Part shown: one piece after another, positions 2,760 through 13,380 of the stretch
Layout: each line of letters starts with the position of its first letter
How positions within the stretch are numbered: the first letter of the stretch is position 1
NCBI GenBank assembly: GCA_024511395.1
Contig: JANELJ010000018.1
Coordinates: forward strand, 1-13,380
Origin: Gammaproteobacteria bacterium
Lineage (GTDB): Bacteria; Pseudomonadota; Gammaproteobacteria; GRL18
Direction: 5' to 3'
Length of the DNA stretch: 13,380 nt
Translations under genes and position numbers: made by a program
Notes under the pieces: generated by a model
Databases searched by the model: none
Told to the model about the DNA's origin: nothing
The model's input: the letters and a program-made list of their open reading frames with translations, nothing else

Positions 2760-2967
2760 TACAAACCTCCCCATTTCCCATTGGAATTGATAAAGGATTG
2801 CTTTCAGTGGTATTGAGCATATCCTCTTCGATTCTTTCCCAGAGAAATAAAATTTTTCTACCACCAAAAGGGCGAATATAGTGTGTACCTTCAATAAGTA
2901 CACTGTCTTTTAACCGTTCTCTTATAGTTCTTATGTCGTATTTAATTTTCTTGGATAGTTCTGCAGT
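2752..2967 (-). pseudogene. Excisionase-like small DNA-binding protein, damaged 5' end
   Basis: A frame hidden behind the integrase reading encodes about 71 residues: TAELSKKIKYDIRTIRERLK, then DSVLIEGTHYIRPFGG and RKILFLWERIEEDML with a short tail. A helix-turn-helix lead followed by G.HY.R..GRKILF.W is typical of excisionase/regulator genes immediately upstream of DUF3596 integrases, and its stop overlaps the integrase start in the usual way (ATGGGTAG). No standard start codon precedes the conserved part. In frame, an ATG at 2982 is followed three codons later by TAG (2970-2968) inside the palindrome, so the natural 5' end has been lost or interrupted. It may still be expressed from a rare start such as ATT, but I consider it broken. 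Confidence 0.65.
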
Positions 2968-3017
2968 CTATAATAAAGCCATGTCTATCTGATAGGCATG
3001 GCTTTATTATAGACTGC
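2963..3017. repeat. 55-bp near-perfect palindrome between divergent excisionase and RHH genes
   Basis: Perfect 21-bp arms (2963-2983 and 2997-3017, beginning GCAGTCTATAAT) flank a core that pairs for five more bases (CTATC/GATAG) around a single central T at 2990, with one mismatch (2984/2996). It overlaps the 5' end of the excisionase-like frame and lies in the control region of the divergent RHH gene. It could be an operator, a hairpin or an inverted duplication formed during rearrangement. Confidence 0.85.
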
Positions 3018-3057
3018 TAGACAAGGTTGTCAAGCTTTTTGTGTCTAATTAGTAGAC
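2966..3057. promoter_or_regulatory. Array of TAGAC/GTCTA half-sites, candidate RHH operator
   Basis: Six TAGAC or inverse GTCTA pentamers occur in 92 bp: 2966-2970, 2983-2987, 3010-3014, 3018-3022, 3043-3047 and 3053-3057. The last pair forms GTCTA-ATTAG-TAGAC inside the predicted promoter spacer of the RHH gene. RHH repressors bind tandem short half-sites of this size, so autoregulation is a reasonable inference; no binding data exist. Confidence 0.45.
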
Positions 3058-3067
3058 GTGATATGAT
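3039..3067 (+). promoter_or_regulatory. Predicted promoter of the RHH regulator gene
   Basis: TTGTGT (3039-3044) and TATGAT (3062-3067) are separated by 17 bp, with two TAGAC-type half-sites in the spacer. A start near 3074 would leave a leader of about a dozen bases containing the GGAGG ribosome site. The spacing is good but the -35 is weak. Confidence 0.4.
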
Positions 3068-3086
3068 TTCAAAAATGGAGGTGCCT

Positions 3087-3263
3087 ATGGAACGAACTCA
3101 GATCAACGTCAGACTATCTACAAAATTGCTGGAATTAATGGATAAAAAAAGAATGGAGTTACAGCCAGAATTAGGAAAAATTCCAACTCGTTCAGATATT
3201 ATGAGGTATGCGTTAGAAAAATATTTAAAATTAAACAGTAGTGAAACAGAATCAGAAAATTAG
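3087..3263 (+). CDS. Ribbon-helix-helix (MetJ/Arc-type) transcriptional regulator
   Basis: A 58-residue protein starting at the ATG of 3087, chosen over an upstream in-frame codon at 3027 because GGAGG lies 5 bases before it and the RHH strand follows at once. TQINVRLSTKLLELMDKK is the DNA-contacting beta strand plus first helix; PTRSDIMRYALEKYLK is the second helix, with the S-D-I-x-R-x-A pattern of the family. The tail is short and acidic. Proteins of this size act as dimers on tandem half-sites, as plasmid or phage-type repressors or antitoxins. No toxin gene is adjacent; the divergent neighbour is an excisionase-integrase pair, so control of that module is the likely role. The TAGAC/GTCTA array just upstream is the obvious candidate operator. 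Confidence 0.8.
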   Translation: MERTQINVRLSTKLLELMDKKRMELQPELGKIPTRSDIMRYALEKYLKLNSSETESEN

Positions 3264-3663: not shown

Positions 3664-4198
3664 ATGAAAAAACCACATTTTAAACACTTTTTCCTACTTT
3701 TGAGCGTATTTTCTGTTCTTCTGGTAGCAGGTGTTCCTGCTGCAATGGCTAATTCTACACTGGCACGTTGTGATATTTATAAAAAAGGCAATTAACGGGG
3801 TGGTTACGGGAGCTGAAGTGGCGGATTTAAATGCTGACGGTTATCCGGAAATATACATATATACCTATTTTACCGGTAATGGCAGTTATGGTGATGTGGT
3901 GGCTTATAGTGCCAATAATAAAAAATCATTAAGTTCCGTTTATTTACCACCTTTAAGCAATGATAATAAAATATCCAGTGGTTATAGAGGTTATGATGAA
4001 TTTACTATCATTGAAAATAGTCTTGCCAGACACTTCCCGATTGATACTGTTTACAATACAGTGAAAGGTATGAATAATAAGCCCACCAATGATATGATGC
4101 GCTAGGTACAGTACAAACTGCTCAGGGGTGAGGCCGGCTGGCAGTTGCAGGCCGTAAAAGTAACGGATTTTCAGGTTAAAAACAGACACAAAAAATGA
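3664..4198 (+). pseudogene. Periplasmic PliI-like (lysozyme inhibitor family) protein, frameshifted and with internal TAG
   Basis: From the ATG at 3664 a clear signal peptide is encoded (MKK..., hydrophobic LLLSVFSVLLVAG, AMA cleavage-like end), then the frame meets TAA after KKGN at about 3793. The next frame, open from about 3731, carries the body: TGAEVADLNADGYPEIYIY, TGNGSYGDVVAYSANN, KKSLSSVYLPPL and a C-terminal strand. The shift lies at or near an A6 run (about 3780-3786). The second frame stops at TAG (4103-4105) but continues in register with VQYKLLRGEAGWQLQAVKV to a TGA at 4196-4198. The DLNxDGYPE and GSYG motifs recall PliI-type periplasmic lysozyme inhibitors; the assignment is tentative. 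The TAG sits in CTAGG, and CAG (Gln) fits the family-like RQ.QYKL context. Its final TGA overlaps the rmlC ATG, suggesting the intact gene was coupled to rmlC. Confidence 0.7.
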
Positions 4199-4770
4199 AA
4201 TATACAAAAACAGCTATTGCTGATGTTATCTTAATTGAGCCTAAAGTATTTGGTGATGAACGGGGGTATTTTGTTGAGACCTTTCGGGCCGACACTTTTG
4301 AGGCGGAAACCGGCATTAAAACGGCCTTTGTACAGGATAATGAATCCCGCTCCAGTTATGGAGTTTTAAGAGGACTGCATTATCAGCTACCCCCTCATGT
4401 CCAAAGCAAGCTCGTTAGAGTTATTGAAGGGCGGGTACTGGATGTGGCGGTGGATATTCGAAAAGGTTCGCCCACCTTCGGTCAGCATGTTTGTGAGGAA
4501 TTATCGGCTGAAAATAAACACCAGTTGTTTATCCCCAGAGGTTTTGCTCATGGTTTTGTGGTGCTGTCAGAAACAGCGATTTTTTCCTATAAAGTAGATA
4601 ATTACTACTCCCCTGAATGTGATCGGGGCATAAAGTTCGATGATCCTCTGCTTGGGATTGACTGGAAAATTGCGGCTTCTGAGCTGGTTTTATCAGATAA
4701 TGATAAAACCCAGCCATTATTGCAGGATGCGGTTGATCTGTTTGACTATTCCAATAACTTATACGACTGA
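4195..4770 (+). CDS. rmlC: dTDP-4-dehydrorhamnose 3,5-epimerase
   Basis: RmlC (RfbC) converts dTDP-4-keto-6-deoxyglucose to dTDP-4-keto-L-rhamnose in the cytoplasm, the third step of dTDP-L-rhamnose synthesis. The 191-residue length is normal. Recognisable cupin-fold motifs in order are FGDERGYFVETF (about 20-31), FVQDNESRSSYGVLRGLHYQ (about 45-64, with His62 the likely catalytic base), GRVLDVAVDIRKGSPTFG, FIPRGFAHGFVVLSE (about 112-126), YKVDNYYSPECDRGI and the DDPLLGIDW segment. The start overlaps the TGA of the broken PliI-like gene, and no clear ribosome site precedes it, so expression may have relied on coupling. rmlD follows after 5 bases. rmlA and rmlB are absent from the window and may be elsewhere. 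Confidence 0.95.
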   Translation: MKYTKTAIADVILIEPKVFGDERGYFVETFRADTFEAETGIKTAFVQDNESRSSYGVLRGLHYQLPPHVQSKLVRVIEGRVLDVAVDIRKGSPTFGQHVCEELSAENKHQLFIPRGFAHGFVVLSETAIFSYKVDNYYSPECDRGIKFDDPLLGIDWKIAASELVLSDNDKTQPLLQDAVDLFDYSNNLYD

Positions 4771-4775
4771 GATTT

Positions 4776-5669
4776 ATGAAATTACTGATTACCGGAGCTA
4801 AAGGACAGGTTGGCAGCGAGCTGGTAAAGGACGCTCAGGCCAGAGATTATGAGGTGTTTGATTTCGGCTCTCGTGAGCTTGATATCACCAATTTTAAGCA
4901 ACTGATGCAAAAAGTTGAGCAAATACGTCCGGATGTCATTATCAATGCAGCAGCTTATACCGCTGTAGACAAAGCGGAACAGGAGTCTGAGTTGGCCTAT
5001 GCAGTAAATGCCTTGGGCAGTGAAAACCTGGCCAAAGCCAGTAAACAACAGACTATTCCCCTGCTGTATATTTCTACAGACTATGTCTTTGATGGCGAAA
5101 AAGACACACCCTATACGGAAATGGATCAACCTAACCCTACCGGAGTTTACGGAGCATCGAAGCTGCAGGGAGACCAGGCCATTGAGGCCATCTGGTCTAG
5201 GCATATTATTCTGCGGGTGAGCTGGGTATTTGGTGAGCAGGGCAATAATTTTGTCAAAACCATGCTCAGACTGGCGGAACAACGGGATGAATTGAGCATT
5301 GTTAATGATCAGTTTGGTGCTCCAACATCGGCGAGAGCCATTAGTCAGAGTCTGCTGTCCATTCTGGAAGCAGATAATTTTAATCAACCTGACTTTCTCT
5401 GGGGTACCTACCACCTGCAAAGTGAGCCAGGTGTTACCTGGTTTGAATTTGCCAGAGAGATATTTAAACAGGCAGAAAAGCTTGGTTTGATTAATAAGAC
5501 TATGAAGTTGAACCCGATCTCTTCCTCAGAGTTTCCTACCCCAGTTAAACGTCCGGCTAATTCCAAACTGGACGGTATTAAACTAAAGCAGAATTTTGCT
5601 CTTAAACCCGTGCAGTGGCAGGATGATTTACAGCAAATGCTAAAAAATATGTCCGCTATTACTTCCTGA
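4776..5669 (+). CDS. rmlD: dTDP-4-dehydrorhamnose reductase
   Basis: RmlD (RfbD) reduces dTDP-4-keto-L-rhamnose to dTDP-L-rhamnose with NAD(P)H, the last step of the pathway. The protein has 297 residues, the usual size. The Rossmann nucleotide motif TGAKGQVG is at about 6-13, DVIINAAAYTAVDKAE at about 53-68, STDYVFDGE at about 100-108, and the short-chain dehydrogenase YGASK pair with Tyr125 and Lys129 is intact. VSWVFGEQGNNFVKTML and the ND.FG.PT substrate segment are also present. It lies 5 bases after rmlC with a GAG ribosome-site element. The codon pair TCT AGG at 5196-5201 forms a CTAGG that would be silent relative to TCC AGG. Confidence 0.95.
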   Translation: MKLLITGAKGQVGSELVKDAQARDYEVFDFGSRELDITNFKQLMQKVEQIRPDVIINAAAYTAVDKAEQESELAYAVNALGSENLAKASKQQTIPLLYISTDYVFDGEKDTPYTEMDQPNPTGVYGASKLQGDQAIEAIWSRHIILRVSWVFGEQGNNFVKTMLRLAEQRDELSIVNDQFGAPTSARAISQSLLSILEADNFNQPDFLWGTYHLQSEPGVTWFEFAREIFKQAEKLGLINKTMKLNPISSSEFPTPVKRPANSKLDGIKLKQNFALKPVQWQDDLQQMLKNMSAITS

Positions 5670-5677
5670 TCAAATAA

Positions 5678-5705
5678 TTGCTAAAATAGCGCAGTTAATC
5701 ATAAT
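5678..5705 (+). promoter_or_regulatory. Possible promoter of the carbamoyltransferase gene
   Basis: TTGCTA (5678-5683), a 16-bp spacer and CATAAT (5700-5705) lie in the 62-bp gap after rmlD. Alternatively the gene is simply co-transcribed with rmlCD. Confidence 0.35.
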
Positions 5706-5731
5706 CATTACTGCCGTAGAAGGAATAATTA

Positions 5732-7471
5732 GTGCCGCTAATCACTCTCGGGCTTTCCGGTTCCCTGAATCATGATCCCTCTGCCGCCCTGTTTTTTGAC
5801 GGCAAGCTGGTTGCCGCTGCTGAAGAAGAGCGTTTTATCAGGGACAAACATGCCAAAGGTAAAATGCCGGTACATGCCACCCGCTTTTGTCTGGATTATG
5901 CCGGTATTACGCCCGATCAAATTGATATTGTCGCCGTTCCTTATGCTGAAATTCCCCTGTCTTCCCCGGCCCGCTGGCATTATGCTAAGCGCTACTGGTA
6001 TGCACCGGACCGGGCATTAGATGCCCTGTTTAACGGTAATCGCCGTTATCGCCGCTATGTCGGTTATATTAAAGCCATGTGTGAAGAAGTCGGCATTAAC
6101 TGGACGGCTATTCAGTTTGAGTCGGTAGAACATCACCTAGCCCATGTCAGCAGTTGTTACCATTTAAGTGGTTTTAAAGAGAAAACCGCCATTATGGGCA
6201 TTGACGGTAAGGGTGAATACGCTACGACTTTTTTTGGTTACGGGGAAAACGGTAAAATCTATAAAATTAAGGAATTTTACGATCCGGATTCACTGGGCGG
6301 TGTGTATGGTGCTATTACTGAATACCTGGGGTTTGAAATGCTTGATGGTGAATTCAAGGTTATGGGTATGGCACCGTATGGTGATCCCAATAAATACGAT
6401 TTTTCCCGTCTGATTGATTTTGATGGTAAAGACTTTAAGGTTAATACCAAACTGGTCAATGTAATTGGTACACGGCGTTATAAGGAAAGCGGCAAGGGCT
6501 ATTATTTTTCTCCCGCTCTGATTGACTGGCTGGGCCCAAAACGGGAAGGCGATGAAATTGATGATCCCTATGTGGATTATGCGGCCTCCATGCAGAAACT
6601 GTTCGAGGACATTTCGCTCAAACTAATGGACCACTATCTGGGCGATATTATTAAGGAAACCGGAAAAATTGCCTTTGCCGGTGGAGCAGCCCTGAATGTT
6701 AAATTGAACCAGAAAATTATTGCTCGGGACGAAGTTAAAGAGCTGTTTGTACAGCCGGCGGCTTCAGATGCCGGAACCGCTATTGGTGCCGCTTCTTATG
6801 TAATTGCCTCTAAAGGTATTGAGCTGGAAAAAATGGAGCACGTTTACATGGGGCCGGAATTTACTAATGAACAGTGTATTGAAGCCTGTCAGAAATACCA
6901 GAGTGATCATGGACAGGATGTTAAATATAAACAGATAGACGAAGTGCCAAAAAATATTGCCAGAATCCTGGCCGATGGTAACCCCGTATCCTGGTTTCAG
7001 GGGCGTATGGAATTTGGTCCCCGGGCATTAGGCGGGCGTAGTATTTTAGGTTGTCCCAGTATTCCCGGTGTGGCAGACCGGATTAATGAGCAGATTAAAT
7101 TCCGCGAGCGCTGGCGTCCGTTTTGCCCCAGTATGCTTGATACCGTAGCCCCGAAGATGCTGAAAACCGATCATCCTGCCCCTTTTATGACGTTTACTTT
7201 TGAGGTCAATGATGGCTGGGCAGAACGGGTGCCGGAAGTGGTGCATGAAGACGGTACGGCCCGTGCCCAGGCGGTAAAAGAATCAGTTAATCCGAGGTAT
7301 TATGCTTTATTAAAAGAAATTGAAGTGTTAACAGGTAATGGCGTGGTGCTTAATACTTCCCTGAACCGACGCGGTGAGCCGGTGGTCTGTACGCCGGAAG
7401 ATGCACTGAATATGTTTTACGGTTCGGATCTGCAGTATTTAATTATGCAGGATATTCTGGTGACTAAATAG
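5732..7471 (+). CDS. NodU/CmcH/TobZ-family carbamoyltransferase
   Basis: The family transfers a carbamoyl group from carbamoyl phosphate, through a carbamoyl-adenylate, to a hydroxyl of a sugar or antibiotic. The 579-residue protein has the two-part architecture: an N-terminal Kae1/ASKHA-like domain (GLSGSLNHDPSAAL near 7-20, EEERF, VEHHLAHVSS with His134, His135 and His138, IDGKGE with Asp158, FAGGAALNVKLN at about 314 and DAGTAIGAA at about 346) and a C-terminal YrdC-like domain with GRMEFGPRALGGRSIL near 424-439. The start is GTG at 5732 with AGAAGGA 7 bases before it; the next residues PLITLGLSGS match the family start. Its place after rmlCD suggests the acceptor is a deoxysugar or surface glycan, as NodU acts on Nod factor, but the substrate cannot be read from sequence. 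The CTA at 6137 lies in CCTAG. Confidence 0.92.
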   Translation: MPLITLGLSGSLNHDPSAALFFDGKLVAAAEEERFIRDKHAKGKMPVHATRFCLDYAGITPDQIDIVAVPYAEIPLSSPARWHYAKRYWYAPDRALDALFNGNRRYRRYVGYIKAMCEEVGINWTAIQFESVEHHLAHVSSCYHLSGFKEKTAIMGIDGKGEYATTFFGYGENGKIYKIKEFYDPDSLGGVYGAITEYLGFEMLDGEFKVMGMAPYGDPNKYDFSRLIDFDGKDFKVNTKLVNVIGTRRYKESGKGYYFSPALIDWLGPKREGDEIDDPYVDYAASMQKLFEDISLKLMDHYLGDIIKETGKIAFAGGAALNVKLNQKIIARDEVKELFVQPAASDAGTAIGAASYVIASKGIELEKMEHVYMGPEFTNEQCIEACQKYQSDHGQDVKYKQIDEVPKNIARILADGNPVSWFQGRMEFGPRALGGRSILGCPSIPGVADRINEQIKFRERWRPFCPSMLDTVAPKMLKTDHPAPFMTFTFEVNDGWAERVPEVVHEDGTARAQAVKESVNPRYYALLKEIEVLTGNGVVLNTSLNRRGEPVVCTPEDALNMFYGSDLQYLIMQDILVTK

Positions 7472-7512
7472 TGTCCGTCTGTTTTTAAGCTTTCAATTTT
7501 CCCCTTTTTTGA

Positions 7513-7544
7513 CTTAAACCCCCTTTGAAAAAGGGGGACTTAAG
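7513..7544. terminator. C5/G5 palindrome between convergent genes, likely bidirectional terminator
   Basis: CTTAA and CCCCCTTT (7513-7526) pair with AAAGGGGG and TTAAG (7530-7544) around a loop of about three bases, with a small bulge. It lies between the end of the carbamoyltransferase gene (7471) and the end of the leftward DUF2384 gene (7568). A related, longer element separates the other convergent pair at 10156-10227, so this is a dispersed palindromic repeat that may serve as a terminator. Confidence 0.6.
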
Positions 7545-7567
7545 AGGAGCAGAGTTCGGGTTAGGAT

Positions 7568-7981
7568 TTAGTTTGAGTCACCAAACCAGTCGTAACTGCA
7601 GTCCAGATGCTTACGGATCTGGATAATGCCTTCCAGATCATCTTCTACCATGACCTGAATCGGTGAGCGGTTTTTAAACTTCTTGCTGGCACGGGTCATC
7701 CAGAATAGGGACATTTTGGGATTGGTCGGGTAACTGGTGGACAGTGCATCTATAATACCTAGAATATGACGCAGACGTTCCTGTACTTCAGATGTGTCCG
7801 GAAATGCAGTGTCATGCCTGAACTGGCTCAGGTGACGGACTTTTACATTTTTTGGTAATGCCATAATGGAGAGAATATGTTCACCGTCCAGTTGCCACTG
7901 GTCCATAATGTGCATCACGGCATTGGTGACTTTTATGTTATAATCCTCTTCGGACAATTCGTTTTGTGGTTGTGCTGTCAT
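7568..7981 (-). CDS. MbcA/ParS/Xre-like antitoxin-family protein (DUF2384)
   Basis: A 137-residue protein whose C-terminal third, FWMTRASKKFKNRSPIQVMVED followed by DLEGIIQIRKHLDC in pieces, has the W..r.....f..r.P...m....G....r..L pattern of the MbcA/ParS/Xre toxin-binding domain. The N-terminal two-thirds is helical (AVMHIMDQWQLDGEHILSIM, then RLRHILGIIDALSTSYP) and resembles the Xre-like part. Classic members neutralise a RES-domain NAD-degrading toxin encoded next door. No such gene is visible: neighbours are a carbamoyltransferase (convergent) and an unknown gene (divergent). It may therefore be a stand-alone regulator rather than an antitoxin. Start ATG at 7981 is preceded by AGG about 9 bases upstream. 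Family assignment is from motif memory and moderately sure. Confidence 0.7.
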   Translation of the reverse strand: MTAQPQNELSEEDYNIKVTNAVMHIMDQWQLDGEHILSIMALPKNVKVRHLSQFRHDTAFPDTSEVQERLRHILGIIDALSTSYPTNPKMSLFWMTRASKKFKNRSPIQVMVEDDLEGIIQIRKHLDCSYDWFGDSN

Positions 7982-8175
7982 ATTGTGTTGCCTGTTTTAC
8001 CTGATTAAAGGCTTAAAGTCCTAGTGATTTAGTCGGGTTTTATTGTATCATCTATTTTCTGTTATTTCTAACTAATTTTATTATCTTCTAAAGTTTGTCT
8101 ATATGTCAGTCTGAAAAACTGTCAAAAGCACCTTTTAAACCGAATAAAAAGTTAACTGTATTAAAGAGGAAAGCT

Positions 8176-8592
8176 ATGTCTGAAGTAAGCGGATCTGAAA
8201 AAGTCTCGTTTTTACTGGGGGGGCAGGAAGTTTTAACTTATGACCGTTCTATTGCCCTGACGGAGCAGCAGAAAAATTACCTGGAGGATATGGACAGATC
8301 CCTGGAAGAAGGGTTTATGCTGGCTGGGCAGAAGGTGGAGCAACCTGATCTGGAACAGAAAACCCAGTTTGTGGCACTGAATCTGGTGCAGGTACTGCAA
8401 AAAGAAGACGATAAAACGGCCATTATACTGTTTTCTTACCTGGTGGATCGGATGCCGGACCTGAAACAGGCTAAGGCAATGGTTAAAGAGAGCGAATCCG
8501 GTAATAAAATCGGGGTGGAGTTTATTTTTGATGAAATCAAGCCGGAAGGGCAGAAACTGGAGTTTCATCCTAAACCGCTGGTGATGCATTAA
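8176..8592 (+). CDS. Unrecognised acidic protein, first of a three-gene set
   Basis: I do not recognise this 138-residue protein. The start is the ATG at 8176 with AGAGGA 5 bases upstream; a longer reading from a TTG at 8095 has a basic, unconserved-looking extension and no ribosome site. The sequence opens with a strand-like FLLGGQEVLTYD, then ALTEQQKNYLEDMDRSLEEGF, an amphipathic helix (FVALNLVQVLQKEDDKTA, ILFSYLVDRMPDL), and a strand-rich C-terminus (KIGVEFIFDEIKPEGQKLEFHP). There is no signal peptide, membrane segment or cysteine, so it is probably a soluble cytoplasmic protein. It precedes 8663-9346 and 9435-10136 on the same strand with gaps of 70 and 88 bases and a similar Glu/Gln/Leu-rich composition, which suggests joint function. 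Confidence 0.75.
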   Translation: MSEVSGSEKVSFLLGGQEVLTYDRSIALTEQQKNYLEDMDRSLEEGFMLAGQKVEQPDLEQKTQFVALNLVQVLQKEDDKTAIILFSYLVDRMPDLKQAKAMVKESESGNKIGVEFIFDEIKPEGQKLEFHPKPLVMH

Positions 8593-8662
8593 GTTATTAC
8601 TGCAGGCAAAATAATATGGTTTATAAAAGTTTATGAAATAAGTTTGTGAAAAAGGTAGTTGC

Positions 8663-9346
8663 ATGACTCTGGAATTTTTACCCCGTCCCGGTATGCGGGA
8701 GCGGCATCTTAAACGGCAGTATCAGAATCTGCTGTTTGATAAAAACGTGCGGGAATTTGATAAGCAGCGTTTAAGTGGTGCCCGTTTTATGGATGAAAAA
8801 GAGCAGGAAGAATTCGGCCAGTCTTTTGTACAGCTGGTGGAAGAAGTGGCTGAATTAAAGCCCAATGAAGACAGTGAAGTGTTGCTGGAACTGAAAGCCC
8901 GCCTGGATCATACTTATGAAGTCTGCAGTGGCCTGGCAGGGGAACATGAAGCAGAAAAGCAGGCCATTACCCGGCTGGTAGAAGTGATTATGGCCTCCAT
9001 CTGGCAGGGAGCACAGGGTGATGCTGAAGCGGAGCAGAATCTGCATGAGGAAGCCCTGGCACGGAAAACCCATTATCATTTACTGCGTTTTCCTGTTATT
9101 GCTGATCTACTCCGAGCCCGTTCACCCATTGCCGGGGATCAACTGGTACCGACTTTACTGAGTGAGTCAGAAGAGTCGCTGGAAGCGGCACTGACCTTAT
9201 TTGATAAGGAACAGTTAGAAGAAATTCTGCGACGGAGTGAGACTTTGCTAAGTTCTTTGTCTGCTGCGGATAATTCAGATATTTATCAGGCCCGTCTTGA
9301 GCAGATCCGCAGCAAATTATTAAGCCTGTCGCTTGAAACCCAATAG
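8663..9346 (+). CDS. Unrecognised helical, Glu-rich protein
   Basis: A 227-residue protein that I do not recognise. It starts at ATG 8663 with AAGG about 8 bases upstream. The N-terminus is basic (RPGMRERHLKRQYQNLLFDK), after which the protein is almost entirely predicted helix, rich in Glu, Leu, Ala and Gln. Charged heptad-like stretches include EEFGQSFVQLVEEVAEL, VLLELKARLDHTYEV and a C-terminal EEILRRSETLLSSLS. No signal peptide, membrane span or catalytic motif is visible; one cysteine only. Such proteins often act as adaptors or assembly factors. Its position between two other unknown genes, opposite a redox fusion gene (10219-11736), suggests a shared but unknown pathway. Confidence 0.78.
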   Translation: MTLEFLPRPGMRERHLKRQYQNLLFDKNVREFDKQRLSGARFMDEKEQEEFGQSFVQLVEEVAELKPNEDSEVLLELKARLDHTYEVCSGLAGEHEAEKQAITRLVEVIMASIWQGAQGDAEAEQNLHEEALARKTHYHLLRFPVIADLLRARSPIAGDQLVPTLLSESEESLEAALTLFDKEQLEEILRRSETLLSSLSAADNSDIYQARLEQIRSKLLSLSLETQ

Positions 9347-9434
9347 TTTATCCCCAATTAAATCAATTACATTCCCCTTAATCCCTAGCCTAAAGAGCCA
9401 TAGTTTTGGAGTCATATTAGCTCTGGAGTAATAA

Positions 9435-10136
9435 ATGAATCAGGAAAAACAGGAAATAGATAGCCCGATTGAAACCTCTGATGCCAAAGAAACCCGTGAG
9501 TTTCTGGCACAGAAGGTACAGGAATTTTCAGATAAGCTGGCGGCTTTACCCAAGGTGGTCGCCTCCATGGAAAAAGCCAGAGTGTTGCTGGATCTGGCTA
9601 ATGCTGAACTGGGTATGACCCAGATGAGTGATGTCTGGAATCATGCTAAGGAAGCCTTTGATATCTGCATTGCCAATGAAGAATGGCAGATAGCCATTGA
9701 AGCCTGCGACTTACTTTACCAGACAGAACTGCCGTCCTCCATTGTTGCCTTGGGGCATGGTGTCTGGCTGTCGGTGACTTATCCTGTTGAGCCGGAATAT
9801 ACCATTAATATGCTAAATTATGTCATTAATGAAACCCCGGATGATGCCGATGGTGCTGCCCTGGCGGCTGTGACAGCCCACTTTATTGTGGATCACCGCA
9901 CCGAGGGCCGTAAGAAAGAAGATCTGAAAGTGATCACCGGTAATATGATTGCCAAAGTAGCTGAGCGGCACAGTAAGGTTGAAACCCAGATGGGACTGGA
10001 TGTCTGGATGGACAAGCTGGAATTAAGAGATCCCGATGTGTTCCTGCCCCGTATGGGTCTGGTAGTTGGAGCCATTGTCGGTGACGGAAACTGGTGGTTT
10101 GATCGGGATGAGTTAAGAGCGAAAATTCCGGATTAA
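9435..10136 (+). CDS. Unrecognised TPR-like helical-repeat protein
   Basis: A 233-residue soluble protein from ATG 9435, preceded by GGAG 6 bases upstream. After an acidic N-terminus the sequence EKARVLLDLANAELG, VWNHAKEAFDICIANEEW and IAIEACDLLYQTE gives helix pairs with TPR-like spacing of small and large residues, so a helical repeat fold is likely. A distinct middle motif, LGHGVWLSVTYPVEPEYT, is followed by NYVINETPDDADGAALAAVTAHF. The C-terminus ends in a Trp/Asp-rich WWFDRDELRAKIPD. I cannot assign a function. It is the last gene of the rightward set and is followed 19 bases later by the large palindrome. Confidence 0.8.
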   Translation: MNQEKQEIDSPIETSDAKETREFLAQKVQEFSDKLAALPKVVASMEKARVLLDLANAELGMTQMSDVWNHAKEAFDICIANEEWQIAIEACDLLYQTELPSSIVALGHGVWLSVTYPVEPEYTINMLNYVINETPDDADGAALAAVTAHFIVDHRTEGRKKEDLKVITGNMIAKVAERHSKVETQMGLDVWMDKLELRDPDVFLPRMGLVVGAIVGDGNWWFDRDELRAKIPD

Positions 10137-10155
10137 TTTCTGGTTGTTGAAATTA

Positions 10156-10227
10156 AACGATTAACCACCCTGCTCTTAAATCCCCCTTTTTGAAAAGGGG
10201 GATTTAAGAGCAGGGTGGTTAATCGTT
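10156..10227. repeat. Perfect 72-bp palindrome (35-bp arms, 2-base loop) between convergent genes
   Basis: The left arm 10156-10190 (AACGATTAACCACCC..., ending CCCCCTTTT) is the exact inverse complement of 10193-10227, separated only by TG. The right arm overlaps the last three codons of the leftward fusion gene, including its TAA stop (10219-10221). The inner part, CTTAAATCCCCC and its inverse, is related to 7513-7544. It should fold into a very stable hairpin in either transcript and probably terminates both convergent genes, although no long T run follows the stem. Confidence 0.9.
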
Positions 10228-11736
10228 GATTTCGTCGCCATGGAAGGTGCTTTCAAAGTGCATATTTTCAGGTTTTACACCATTGGCCAGCAGTAAGGGC
10301 TTTAACAGATGGTTAAGGTGTCCGGGTGCAGAAATGTATAAATCAAAATTAAGCAGATGTTTATGCTCATTGTGCAGGTGTTTGATTAAGGATTCCGCCA
10401 CCACATCGGTTTTGGATTCCAGCACAATAGGGGTGTAGGTAAAATTATCCAGAGCATTATTCCAGGAACGGCACAGATTTTCCAGGTAGTTTTCTTCAAC
10501 CTTGCGAGTTATCCAGTATAAATGAATGGTATCGGCATTATCCAGTGACATGGCGTGTTCTATGAGTCCTTTGATGGGCGCAAATCCGGTATCCCAGGCG
10601 ACAAAAATCAGTGAATTGGGTGAGTCCTCATCCAGAACAAAACTGCCGTAAGGGCCTTTTAATTTCAGAGTGTCATTGGCTTTAACGTGCTTAATAATGG
10701 CCTGACCAAAATTACTTTGGTCATTGACGGGAATATGAAATTCTAGGGTGCTGGGTTCGCAGGGACAGCTGGCGATGGAATATTCAGCCTGCAGTTCGGT
10801 CTCACTTCCGCCGCTACCTTCGGGAATGATCAACTCAATATGCTGACCGGCCAGAAAACGCAGACGCTGACTGCGGAGAGGGCGCAGGGTCATAATAATG
10901 GCATGATTATTAATGGTCTGCAGTTTCTTCACTTTGGCGGTAATGCTCTGTAATGGAATATCATCGGCACTGACGGCTTCTTCAGTCTCCAGAGTAATAT
11001 CAGTAATGGCCCAGTTTGAGCAGGTCAGAATATATCCCTGAGCTTTTTCACTTTCTGAAAAAACATAATCCTGATGGGCGGTTTTTTCGACCTTGCCGGA
11101 CAGCAGTTTTGCCTTGCACTTGCCGCATTTACCGTTATTACAGCCGTAATCCACGGCTAGGCCACTGCGCAATGCTGATTCCAGCAAGGTTTCGGACTTG
11201 TCGGAGGTAAAGTCATGACGGCTGGGTAACAGGCGTACATGGGGCAGCATAAATTGATGGATCTGCTGCTCCATATGATCGATGGGGGTGATCATTTTTT
11301 CTATTTCCAGGTTTCTGACTTCAGCATGGAACCAGTCTTTACAGTCATTCAGAGCATGTTCTGGATTATCCCCGAGATTTATGGCCATTAAACGATGCTT
11401 CAGGGCATAAATAAGTTCTTCCATTTTTTCTGCATGCTTGCGCTCATCGGCCAGTTCCTGGTTCATTTTTACCAGACGTCGGCTTAAAGCATCAATCTGG
11501 GCACCTTCCCGTTCACTCTGAGCCATTTTATGCACAGCATCGCGCATAAACTTTTCCACTTTCTCAAGCATGGTATTGTCTTCATACTGAGCCTCAGGAA
11601 AAGCCTTTTTTAAATCCAAAAGGGTTACGGTACCTTCCATAACTTTTAGCTTGTTTTCCTGAATTTTCTTTTGAATATCCCCCCGTTTAACACCGATAAG
11701 ACGGGCTGCCTGAGATAATGATAAATGTCTGTCCAT
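10219..11736 (-). CDS. Fusion: N-terminal HTH, coiled coil, [2Fe-2S] ferredoxin and ferredoxin-reductase-like module
   Basis: A 505-residue protein. The start is ATG 11736 with GGAG 6 bases upstream; the TTG at 11748 would place the ribosome site inside the gene. Residues about 3-45 (HLSLSQAARLIGVKRGDIQK...) resemble an excisionase/MerR-type helix-turn-helix. About 50-120 is a charged coiled coil. A plant-type ferredoxin domain follows with Cys199, Cys204, Cys207 and Cys239 (C-x4-C-x2-C-x31-C), complete for one [2Fe-2S] cluster. The rest resembles phenol-hydroxylase or CDP-6-deoxyglucoseen reductases: AGQHIELIIP, YSIAS (319-323), GPYGSF (361-366), TGFAP (383-387). Key residues differ: the Arg of RxYS is Ala317, GGTG is WDTG, and CGP near the end is SAP. 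Flavin or NAD binding may be weakened, so a redox-sing or redox-sensing regulator is as likely as an enzyme. It lies 35 bases after the GGDEF-EAL gene. Confidence 0.85.
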   Translation of the reverse strand: MDRHLSLSQAARLIGVKRGDIQKKIQENKLKVMEGTVTLLDLKKAFPEAQYEDNTMLEKVEKFMRDAVHKMAQSEREGAQIDALSRRLVKMNQELADERKHAEKMEELIYALKHRLMAINLGDNPEHALNDCKDWFHAEVRNLEIEKMITPIDHMEQQIHQFMLPHVRLLPSRHDFTSDKSETLLESALRSGLAVDYGCNNGKCGKCKAKLLSGKVEKTAHQDYVFSESEKAQGYILTCSNWAITDITLETEEAVSADDIPLQSITAKVKKLQTINNHAIIMTLRPLRSQRLRFLAGQHIELIIPEGSGGSETELQAEYSIASCPCEPSTLEFHIPVNDQSNFGQAIIKHVKANDTLKLKGPYGSFVLDEDSPNSLIFVAWDTGFAPIKGLIEHAMSLDNADTIHLYWITRKVEENYLENLCRSWNNALDNFTYTPIVLESKTDVVAESLIKHLHNEHKHLLNFDLYISAPGHLNHLLKPLLLANGVKPENMHFESTFHGDEIND

Positions 11737-11771
11737 GTTATTCTCCAAAAATCATAAGCGGTATAATCAGC

Positions 11772-13082
11772 TTAAGAAGGTAGTTTAGCCGGTAGTTTCA
11801 CAGGCTGTTGACTGGGTTTACCGTACAGATAACCCTGGGCATAGTGGAACTTCATGTTTTTAATGATTGTTTCAGTCTGTTCTGTCTCAATGCCTTCTGC
11901 CACCAGTTGATGGCCGGTTTCATGAATCATGTCAGCCAGATGATGAATAATGCTGTATTGTTTTTTATCACCCAGCTGCTGAATCAGGGATATGTCAAAC
12001 TTAACGATATCAACCGGCATGGAAGATAAATAACTGATGGATGAATAACCACTGCCGAAATCATCCAGAGCAATAATAAAGCCCAGTTTTTTCAGGGCAT
12101 TAATATGTTTGCTGGCCTGGATTATATTGGTTATCAGGGAGGTTTCAGTTATTTCCAGAACAATTTTATACCACTTTAAATAAGGAACAAACAGGGATAG
12201 TTGCTCTACTATATTGTCATGAATAATAGAAGGTCCGGATACATTAATGGATACACCCGTCTGTTCTGGTATTTTTTTGTTTTTAAGATCTGCTTCAATG
12301 GTTTTAAAGATTGCTAGATCGAATTCGTATTCAAGTTTGCGGGATTCAATCAGTTCAAAAATATTTTGAGGCGAGATGATTTCATTGTCTTTTTGTATTC
12401 TCAGCAAGGCTTCATAATAATTCACCTTATGATCAGACAGGGTAATTATAGGCTGGTAAAACATAACAATATCTTTACCTGAGGCTACGGCATCATAAAC
12501 AATATTGTTGATTTTACTGGAAAAAATACTGTTGGAGCTTTTGTCAATGTCTTTTGAATAAAAAATAATATGATAATTGCCCGGTTTTTTTGCTTCATAG
12601 ACAGCGACATCCGCCTGCCACAGGAGATCATTGATACTGCCGGACTGCTGTTCAATATTATGTGCAATACCAATACTGGCAACAACGGGTTCTTTAATAT
12701 TTAAAGTACTGGAGTCCATATTTTTAATGGCATTTTTGCAACGTTCTGCAACTAAAAGGGCATCCTCTGGTTTGACCTCCTAGATAATGGTTGCAAACTC
12801 ATCTCCGCCGATGCGATAGAGTTTTTCTCCTTTTCTTAATGAACCTTGAATGGTTTCTGCAAAGGACTGAAGAACCTTGTCATCCACCGGATGTCCATAA
12901 GTATCATTAATGCTTTTAAAATGGTTTATGTCAAACAGCAGCAGGGCGATTTTCTGACGGCTACCCGAGAAAATGTCCTGAACGTGCTGCCAGTGCTCTT
13001 CAAAAGCCCTGCGGTTAAAAACTCCAGTAAGTGCATCACGGTGAGCCATATCCTAGAGTTCTTTATTTTTATTGTCCAGGTT
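11772..13082 (-). pseudogene. GGDEF-EAL cyclic-di-GMP protein, two internal TAG codons and truncated by an IS
   Basis: The frame is continuous from the IS junction to the TAA at 11774-11772 except for TAG at 13055-13053 and 12782-12780. In order it encodes a linker (LDNKNKEL), the GGDEF domain (DMAHRDALTGVFNRRAF, DINHFKSINDTYGH, RIGGDEFATII, SIGIA, ADVAVYEAKK), and a full EAL domain (YYEALLR, INVSG, LEITET, DDFGSGYSS, VKFDIS, EGIETEQ, QGYLYGKP). The GGDEF and EAL signatures are intact, so both synthesis and hydrolysis of cyclic di-GMP would be possible in an unbroken protein. Both TAGs sit in CTAGG (minus strand) at variable family positions where CAG would give Gln. The 5' part, including any sensor domain, is cut off by IS copy B and would lie beyond it. 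Internal starts such as 12719 could give an EAL-only product. Confidence 0.85.
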
Positions 13083-13380
13083 GGTAATCCCCCCATTTAT
13101 AAAGCAATTCATAAATAGAGGTTTTGCATAAGTCTTATCCACATATCCACATATCCATAGGTCTGCCTGTTGGTAAGACCTTCAGGTTTATCTCACTGAC
13201 AGGCCTGGCCTGTGGGTATGTGGATAAGACGGTTTAAATTGTTTTCTAACAGACTAAAGCCAATTTTTGCCTGGGTGGTACTCCACCGATAGCCGTATGG
13301 GGTCGTTCATTATTATAACTCCATTTCCAGCATGTTGCTGTTTCCTGTGCATGCTCTATAGAATTAAATAAAAACTGATT
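13082..13380 (-). mobile_element. IS3-family insertion sequence, 3' end (copy B, continues outside the window)
   Basis: The element end starts at TGGTAATCCCCCC (13082), fused directly to GGDEF-gene codons. 13083-13336 matches copy A; beyond it the transposase frame continues to the window edge, so this copy may be complete. It contains the same inverted repeat (13132-13145 with 13217-13230) bearing two TTATCCACA sequences, plus a tandem ACATATCCA duplication absent from copy A. The left end and any target duplication lie outside the window. Confidence 0.82.
13246..13380 (-). CDS. IS3-family transposase (orfB, DDE), C-terminal 44 residues, partial
   Basis: The frame is open from the window edge to the TAG at 13248-13246. 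It reads NQFLFNSIEHAQETATC, then WKWSYNNERPHTAIGG and VPPRQKLALVC. Spacing of the FxSIEHAQ helix before the YNNERPHxAIGG motif is that of IS3-family orfB C-termini, which follow the DDE integrase core. The catalytic part is outside the window. Compared with copy A the penultimate residue is Val rather than Ala. Confidence 0.85.
   Translation of the reverse strand, partial: NQFLFNSIEHAQETATCWKWSYNNERPHTAIGGVPPRQKLALVC

Follow-up and report, generated by a model that had tools for sequence, protein, structure and literature searches.

Two genes in a 13,380-nucleotide contig of a gammaproteobacterial genome (JANELJ010000018.1 of assembly GCA_024511395.1; the window, meaning this whole stretch) are split by in-frame TAG codons: what is left of a gene for a PliI-like protein (a periplasmic inhibitor of I-type lysozyme) and a GGDEF-EAL gene. 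As the original prediction had stated from the letters alone, all three stops read C-TAG-G, at 4103-4105 on the plus strand and at 12780-12782 and 13053-13055 on the minus strand. Are these stops traces of C-to-T change at methylated CCWGG sites, are they sequencing errors, or is TAG read as an amino acid? The genome carrying the window (G000) was compared with five congeners (G001 to G005). It shows C-to-T change specific to CCWGG on both strands and at both W letters, on its own branch only, in 34 of the 37 readable sampled contigs and with nonsense outcomes avoided. This footprint was probably left by deamination of 5-methylcytosine (5mC) at Dcm-type CCWGG sites without effective very-short-patch repair on the G000 lineage. 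Such methylation scars would account for one of the three stops and perhaps for a second, in two genes that were already broken.

C-to-T change at CCWGG across the genome

The G000 genome comprises 2,264,450 bases in 407 contigs (completeness 99.43), and the window spans contig C181 from end to end. The sample beyond it consisted of 60 of the 407 contigs (C181 not included), 40 stretches of G005 and 20 contigs of G003. Among these, 23 of the 60 G000 contigs and 8 of the 40 G005 stretches, all shorter than 3 kb, read as N only; the masked G000 contigs amount to 49,409 of about 327 kb sampled (about 15% of bases). This left 277,806 bp of G000 (37 contigs), 556,374 bp of G005 and 211,761 bp of G003 readable, with G+C fractions of 0.445, 0.437 and 0.429, respectively. 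Over most shared stretches G002, G003 and G005 align to the window at about 89-95%, and G001 and G004 at about 70-81%.

The word signature was obtained from a scan of 512 strand-merged pentamers with no motif named beforehand, in which the change of observed/expected was taken for G000 (278 kb, window excluded) relative to G003 and G005 together. The most depleted pentamer in G000 is CCAGG/CCTGG (z -4.7), and the two most enriched are CTTGG (z 4.2) and CTAGG (z 4.0), the exact products of an inner-C-to-T change at CCWGG. Likewise, C[C>T]AGG (odds ratio 8.2, z 13.8) and C[C>T]TGG (odds ratio 2.5, z 11.2) are the top two of 256 C-to-T contexts. The change thus falls on the second C, with both W letters and on both strands. 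The hexamer CCTAGG, in which both strands contain the word, was counted 28 times in G000 and 5 times in the congeners (about 15-fold per kb), and a Dcm-type flank is found on 124/204 CTAG tetramers of the readable G000 sample without the window, compared to 62/184 in G003 and G005 (odds ratio 3.05, p 1e-7). A count of CTAGG across the genome and in relatives had been suggested by the original prediction, and the excess is indeed present in the sample beyond the window. With 37 of the 407 contigs seen, the 34 contigs are those with at least 5% synonymous CTWGG, a level reached by 1/32 stretches of G005 and 3/20 contigs of G003.

The density of CCWGG itself is 2.78 per kb in G000 and 3.62 in the congeners. 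A lower density would also be produced by restriction avoidance, where selection by a restriction enzyme removes CCWGG by any mutation, and losses at the outer positions relative to G005 are indeed more frequent on the G000 side (transitions 29 vs 12, transversions 9 vs 1). Compared to G003, however, the outer transitions number 14 vs 17, and the middle base is without excess (4 vs 5 and 2 vs 6). The consistent asymmetry lies at the inner C, on either strand, with 35 transitions on the G000 side vs 0 for G005, and 23 vs 1 for G003. Avoidance would moreover not lift CTAGG and CTTGG above all other pentamers, and it is a highly improbable cause.

The same signature can be observed at the level of codons (open reading frames (ORFs) 120 codons or longer, 207 of them from G000 and 593 from the congeners). 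TTG in the C_G context makes up 62/348 in G000 and 8/1156 in the congeners, and the corresponding values are 53/339 and 2/1150 for CTA in the C_G context, 30/218 and 8/593 for CAA in the full CCWGG context, and 42/186 and 5/617 for NCT before WGG. The control codons GAG, AAG and GTG in the C_G context are alike in G000 and congeners (p 0.17-0.56), and the half-word contexts give odds ratios of 0.9-2.2. Overall, the synonymous CTWGG fraction is 189/1110 in G000 (7/44 within the window), 20/2561 in G005 and 10/1012 in G003, with 1/72, 0/46 and 8/48 in loci of G002, G004 and G001, respectively. Loci from a different genus in the same family give 10/44, and a 50-kb stretch of Escherichia coli K-12 gives 3/181. 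As a wider yardstick 50 of 80 loci were used (45 of a Pseudomonas-dominated group, 4 of Methylophaga and 1 of Zooshikella); the fractions there are 639/7893, 91/144 and 22/46, respectively, and Methylophaga differs in its general codon use. When aligned pairs are matched for codon change, the Mantel-Haenszel odds ratio is 3.1, and the same codon changes occur at 25/185 CCWGG sites, 26/1030 half words and 42/723 sites with neither.

The direction of change was determined in a three-way alignment of G000, G003 and G005 (14,338 columns, of which the window supplies 7,854 and contig C12 6,484), in which G003 and G005 each served as the reference for the other. At CCWGG, the inner C had changed at 17/65 sites on the G000 branch and at 0/48 on each congener branch. 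For half words, the numbers are 10/432 on the G000 branch compared to 5/427 and 2/424 on the congener branches, and for other C 145/3783 compared to 108/3746 and 98/3736. The G000 rate at CCWGG is thus well above that of other C. With the window removed, changes at CCWGG are still seen at 10/36 sites on the G000 branch and at 0/26 on either congener branch; half words and other C then give 7/219 and 65/1848 for G000. C>T accounts for 267/466 of all changes on the G000 branch vs 156/395 and 135/287 on the congener branches.

Probable methylation, repair and a possible loss of protection

In the reading that we consider probable, the inner C of CCWGG would have been methylated to 5mC by a Dcm-type activity on the G000 branch, after the split from G003 and G005. 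The deaminated 5mC (T:G mismatches) would not have been effectively restored, and CCWGG would have become CTWGG throughout the genome, on either strand. Selection would then have removed most of the nonsense outcomes and left mainly silent changes, while genes already released from constraint may have kept their stops, as in the GGDEF-EAL remnant at 12780 and probably in the PliI-like remnant at 4103.

A footprint of this kind might also follow from a loss of protection alone. In this case, a genus-wide repair system or bias would keep CTWGG rare, G000 would have lost it, and ordinary C-to-T change would fill the sites without methylation. CTWGG is indeed found at about 1% of synonymous sites in G003, G005 and E. 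coli K-12, the half words are depleted too, and they rise in G000: C>T at CCWGH was counted 22+14 times on the G000 side vs 5+1 on the congener side, and at DCWGG 17+9 vs 8+2. Nevertheless, loss of protection alone is rather unlikely. The G000-branch rate at CCWGG is about 7x that of other C and 11x that of half words, and for the same codon changes CCWGG has 2.3x the rate seen where neither half word is present (odds ratio 2.5, p 0.0008). Furthermore, the CTWGG counts of the congeners are predicted by their half words (pentamer observed/expected about 1), so that a pentamer-specific protection is not needed, and low CTWGG alone is no proof of a repair system in G003 and G005.

Several results weigh against methylation-driven deamination. 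The look-up of dcm and vsr homologues that had been proposed with the window yielded none in G000, masked contigs aside. The search of G000, G003 and G005 gave no C5-methyltransferase of PF00145; masked contigs below 3 kb may hide it, so that the negative result may hold for no more than about 85% of G000. Under the same limit of masked contigs below 3 kb, Vsr (PF03852 or TIGR00632) was not found in G000, G002, G003, G004 and G005; it is present in G001. PF01555 was not found in G000 either, where masked contigs may again hide it. In addition, the synonymous excess is small if codon change is left unmatched, with 27/176 at CCWGG vs 563/4773 at other C compared to G005, and 19/89 vs 313/2661 compared to G003. 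The three-way alignment rests on a single contig (C12) besides the window, and 4 of the 10 CTAGG/CCTAG sites of the window align to congener sequence from which they are not CCWGG-derived. Finally, synonymous and nonsynonymous changes at aligned CCWGG sites (31/211 vs 4/67) differ with p 0.09; without the GGDEF-EAL remnant they are 31/209 vs 3/65 (p 0.03). We infer that the modified base was 5mC and that very-short-patch repair was absent; the enzyme may have been lost, may lie in unread or unbinned DNA, or may be of another kind.

Several candidate causes were rejected. An N4-cytosine methyltransferase (PF01555) was set aside with the negative search in G000, where masked contigs could hide it. 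The PF00145 proteins of G002 (461 aa) and G004 (466 aa) score 76.4 and 72.1 bits, compared to a dcm cut-off of 100.65; the family was not found in G000, G003 and G005, and the G002 and G004 loci are without the footprint (1/72 and 0/46). These two proteins (L156:1075-2460 and L157:1435-2835) are divergent and carry an N-terminal extension, and G001 holds a 468-aa PF00145 frame of similar score. Loss of MutY was rejected since C>A is without a clear rise in G000 (41/466 vs 30/395 and 23/287). An HhH-GPD match of MutY length (MutY being named by length only) was not found in G000, where masked contigs may hide it, and is present in all five congeners.

Other observations concern repair families in the genus. 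The half words CTWG and TWGG are strongly depleted at silent sites in G003 and G005, and in the small samples of G002 and G004, as in E. coli K-12; no Vsr gene was found in these congeners. DUF559, a Vsr-like nuclease family, was also rejected as a candidate, as it was not found in any of the six genomes G000 to G005. The uracil-DNA glycosylase family has one match fewer in G000; the counterpart is a type-4-like protein of 214 aa in G005 (contig C26). Frames of similar length occur in G001, G002 and G004, G003 has a truncated one, and masked contigs could hide one in G000.

It is also conceivable, though quite unlikely, that the genus guards CTWGG by a repair or bias other than Vsr, and that G000 lost this guard while an enzyme outside PF00145 kept methylating CCWGG. 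The idea arises because CTWGG makes up about 1% or less of synonymous sites in G002 to G005 (small samples in G002 and G004) with no Vsr found, and because no C5-methyltransferase was found in G003 and G005. If true, Dcm-type sites would here be guarded independently of Vsr, which would be new.

Error, recoding and the ten sites of the window

Deamination of 5mC as a lineage-wide process has to be distinguished from a systematic miscalling of bases in long reads at methylated CCWGG sites. For some species, native-DNA nanopore data do contain errors linked to methylation (PMC12506013). Such an error is blind to the reading frame, so that the avoidance of nonsense outcomes argues against it. In the 207 ORFs of G000, 290 CCWGG codons could turn into TAG, yet the terminal stop lies in CTAGG/CCTAG in only 3 of these ORFs (5/593 in the congeners). 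About 60 such ends would be expected under error, or without selection at the silent rate (P 5e-22), an expectation lowered somewhat by the ORF length cut-off, which loses short split pieces. Weaker support comes from aligned CCWGG sites, where the outcomes are nonsense in 2/49, missense in 2/18 and silent in 31/211. The sampled G000 contigs are about 1.5-23 kb long and look like those of a short-read assembly, and the error would itself need CCWGG methylation. Frameshift indels (16 within the frames of the congeners vs 15 within those of G000) give no sign of error, although the test is weak. Taken together, base-calling error is very unlikely.

Amber read-through, in which TAG would be read as an amino acid, finds some footing in the homologous sequence that continues in frame before and after the TAGs. 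It is extremely improbable, as TAG is an ordinary stop that ends 36/207 ORFs of G000 and 81/593 in the congeners. Besides, no suppressor tRNA is among the 11 tRNAs of the window and the 60 sampled contigs (37 readable; a sample only), and both genes are broken in other ways. Of the three explanations first offered, deamination holds as a lineage-wide process, base-calling error does not fit the avoided nonsense outcomes, and read-through, already placed below the other two, is contradicted.

CTAG is depleted in the window (14 observed vs 35.9 expected from dinucleotide shuffling). A recount agrees that 10 of the 14 lie in CTAGG or CCTAG (Table 1). Alignment to the congeners shows CCWGG in at least one of them at six sites (4102, 5197, 6136, 9384, 10743 and 12779). 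The proposed reversal to CCWGG therefore holds for these six and fails at the other four: at 7758, 11157 and 13052 the congeners have only the half word CCAG, and at 8020 CCTAG is shared by all five.

Table 1. Broken genes, repeat and CTAGG/CCTAG sites of the window
Feature	Coordinates	Strand	Remarks
PliI-like gene remnant	3731..4105	+	Pfam PF16743, 24.4 bits, below cut-off 27
GGDEF-EAL gene remnant	11772..13082	-	EAL 11772-12719 (PF00563); GGDEF 12780-13049 (PF00990)
~250-bp repeat	13083..13336	not assigned	ends alignable GGDEF-EAL part; second copy 1805-2050
CTAGG with in-frame TAG	4102..4106	+	PliI-like remnant; CCAGG in G002, CCAAG in G005
CTAGG	5197..5201	+	ORF 4776-5669, presumably RmlD-like; CCAGG in G005, G003; absent from list of nonsynonymous changes
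CCTAG	6136..6140	+	carbamoyltransferase gene 5732-7471 (Pfam); CCTGG in G005, G003; absent from nonsynonymous list
CCTAG	7758..7762	+	ORF 7568-7981 (minus strand); CCCAGA in G005, G002, G003; not CCWGG-derived
CCTAG	8020..8024	+	kept in 5/5 congeners; no recent change
CCTAG	9384..9388	+	intergenic, ORFs 8663-9346 / 9435-10136; CCTGG in G005, G003, G002
CTAGG	10743..10747	+	ferredoxin/flavin oxidoreductase-like gene 10219-11748 (minus strand); CCAGG in G005, G003, G002, G004; absent from nonsynonymous list
CTAGG	11157..11161	+	same gene 10219-11748; CCAGA (half word) in G005, G003, G002, G004
CCTAG (+) = C-TAG-G (-)	12779..12783	-	premature stop in GGDEF domain; CCTGG in G005, G003
CCTAG (+) = C-TAG-G (-)	13052..13056	-	upstream premature stop, GGDEF-EAL gene; TTCCAGA in G005, G003; not CCWGG-derived

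With respect to the three stops, an origin from CCWGG is borne out at 12780 (2/2 congeners), is probable at 4103 (1/2) and does not hold at 13053 (0/2). The CCAAG of G005 at 4102 is the opposite-strand product of a CCWGG change. The stop at 12780 is one of the 2 CCWGG-derived stops among the 49 aligned CCWGG sites where nonsense could arise; the other is at L194:9605. Within aligned congener frames, in-frame stops of G000 were found at 8 distinct places, 3 of them in CTAGG, and in the reverse direction at 3 places.

Contrary to the earlier assumption, neither gene would otherwise be nearly intact. The supposed frameshift of the PliI-like gene turns out to be a deletion between 11-bp direct repeats, by which 356 bp present in G005 are missing; the junction repeat lies at 3777-3787. 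The GGDEF-EAL gene, for which G005 has an open frame of 744 aa, is cut by a repeat: its alignment to G005 ends at 13082, and what had been taken for an insertion sequence (IS) at 13083 is the ~250-bp repeat of Table 1. Both genes are probably free of constraint, which would be why the stops could stay in their remnants.

The two copies of the ~250-bp repeat are 95% alike and lie at broken gene ends. The repeat resembles a miniature inverted-repeat transposable element (MITE), and partial copies occur in G003, G005 and G000 contig C11 (L011). EAL-protein matches number 10 in G000 (2.26 Mb) vs 16-34 in congeners of 3.2-4.2 Mb; masked contigs could hide some. Elsewhere in the window, long palindromes with a run of C beside AT-rich arms (10151-10232 and 7512-7549) resemble repetitive extragenic palindromic (REP) elements and recur in G003 and G005; the sample contains 18 matches, counting those of the window. 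A 27-bp inverted repeat with a 1-base loop (2963-3017) stands ahead of a small ORF (3027-3263).

Known systems and the meaning of the footprint

The kind of footprint is already known, and G000 would be a further case, read from sequence alone. In E. coli, CCWGG is a hot spot of 5mC deamination (PMC13250602 and PMC3527292); the word, the cytosine (5mC at the second C) and the product (C to T) of these Dcm hot spots, on which Vsr very-short-patch repair acts, are the same as in G000. E. coli K-12 has both Dcm and Vsr (PMC3527292) and CTWGG is rare there (3/181), whereas G000 has 189/1110 with neither enzyme detected. In Helicobacter pylori, PMC10423294 describes a depletion of the ACGT motif of M.Hpy99XI by 5mC deamination. 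This resembles G000 in the lineage-wise loss of a 5mC word, on either strand and mostly at synonymous sites; the word and the organism are different, and the methyltransferase is known there. For Shewanella, PMC8350357 reports genomes with dcm in which vsr was not found, and repair by other routes is inferred there; G000 shows only the footprint, with neither dcm nor vsr found. RIMS-seq (PMC8565308) identifies the methylated word in vitro, using C-to-T changes within NCNNN contexts. CCWGG is read out from C-to-T in G000 as well, with the deamination caused by heat and alkali in RIMS-seq and occurring in evolution in G000.

The word of a methyltransferase, its target base and the state of repair may thus be readable from a fragmented assembly and two congeners, even where the enzyme gene is not seen. 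The window also calls for caution, as apparent amber splits in genomes of this kind can be real mutational scars in genes already dead instead of sequencing errors or recoding. If deamination without effective repair is the true cause, G000 would offer a natural case of CCWGG methylation without the usual repair, useful to gauge the long-term cost of 5mC in bacteria.

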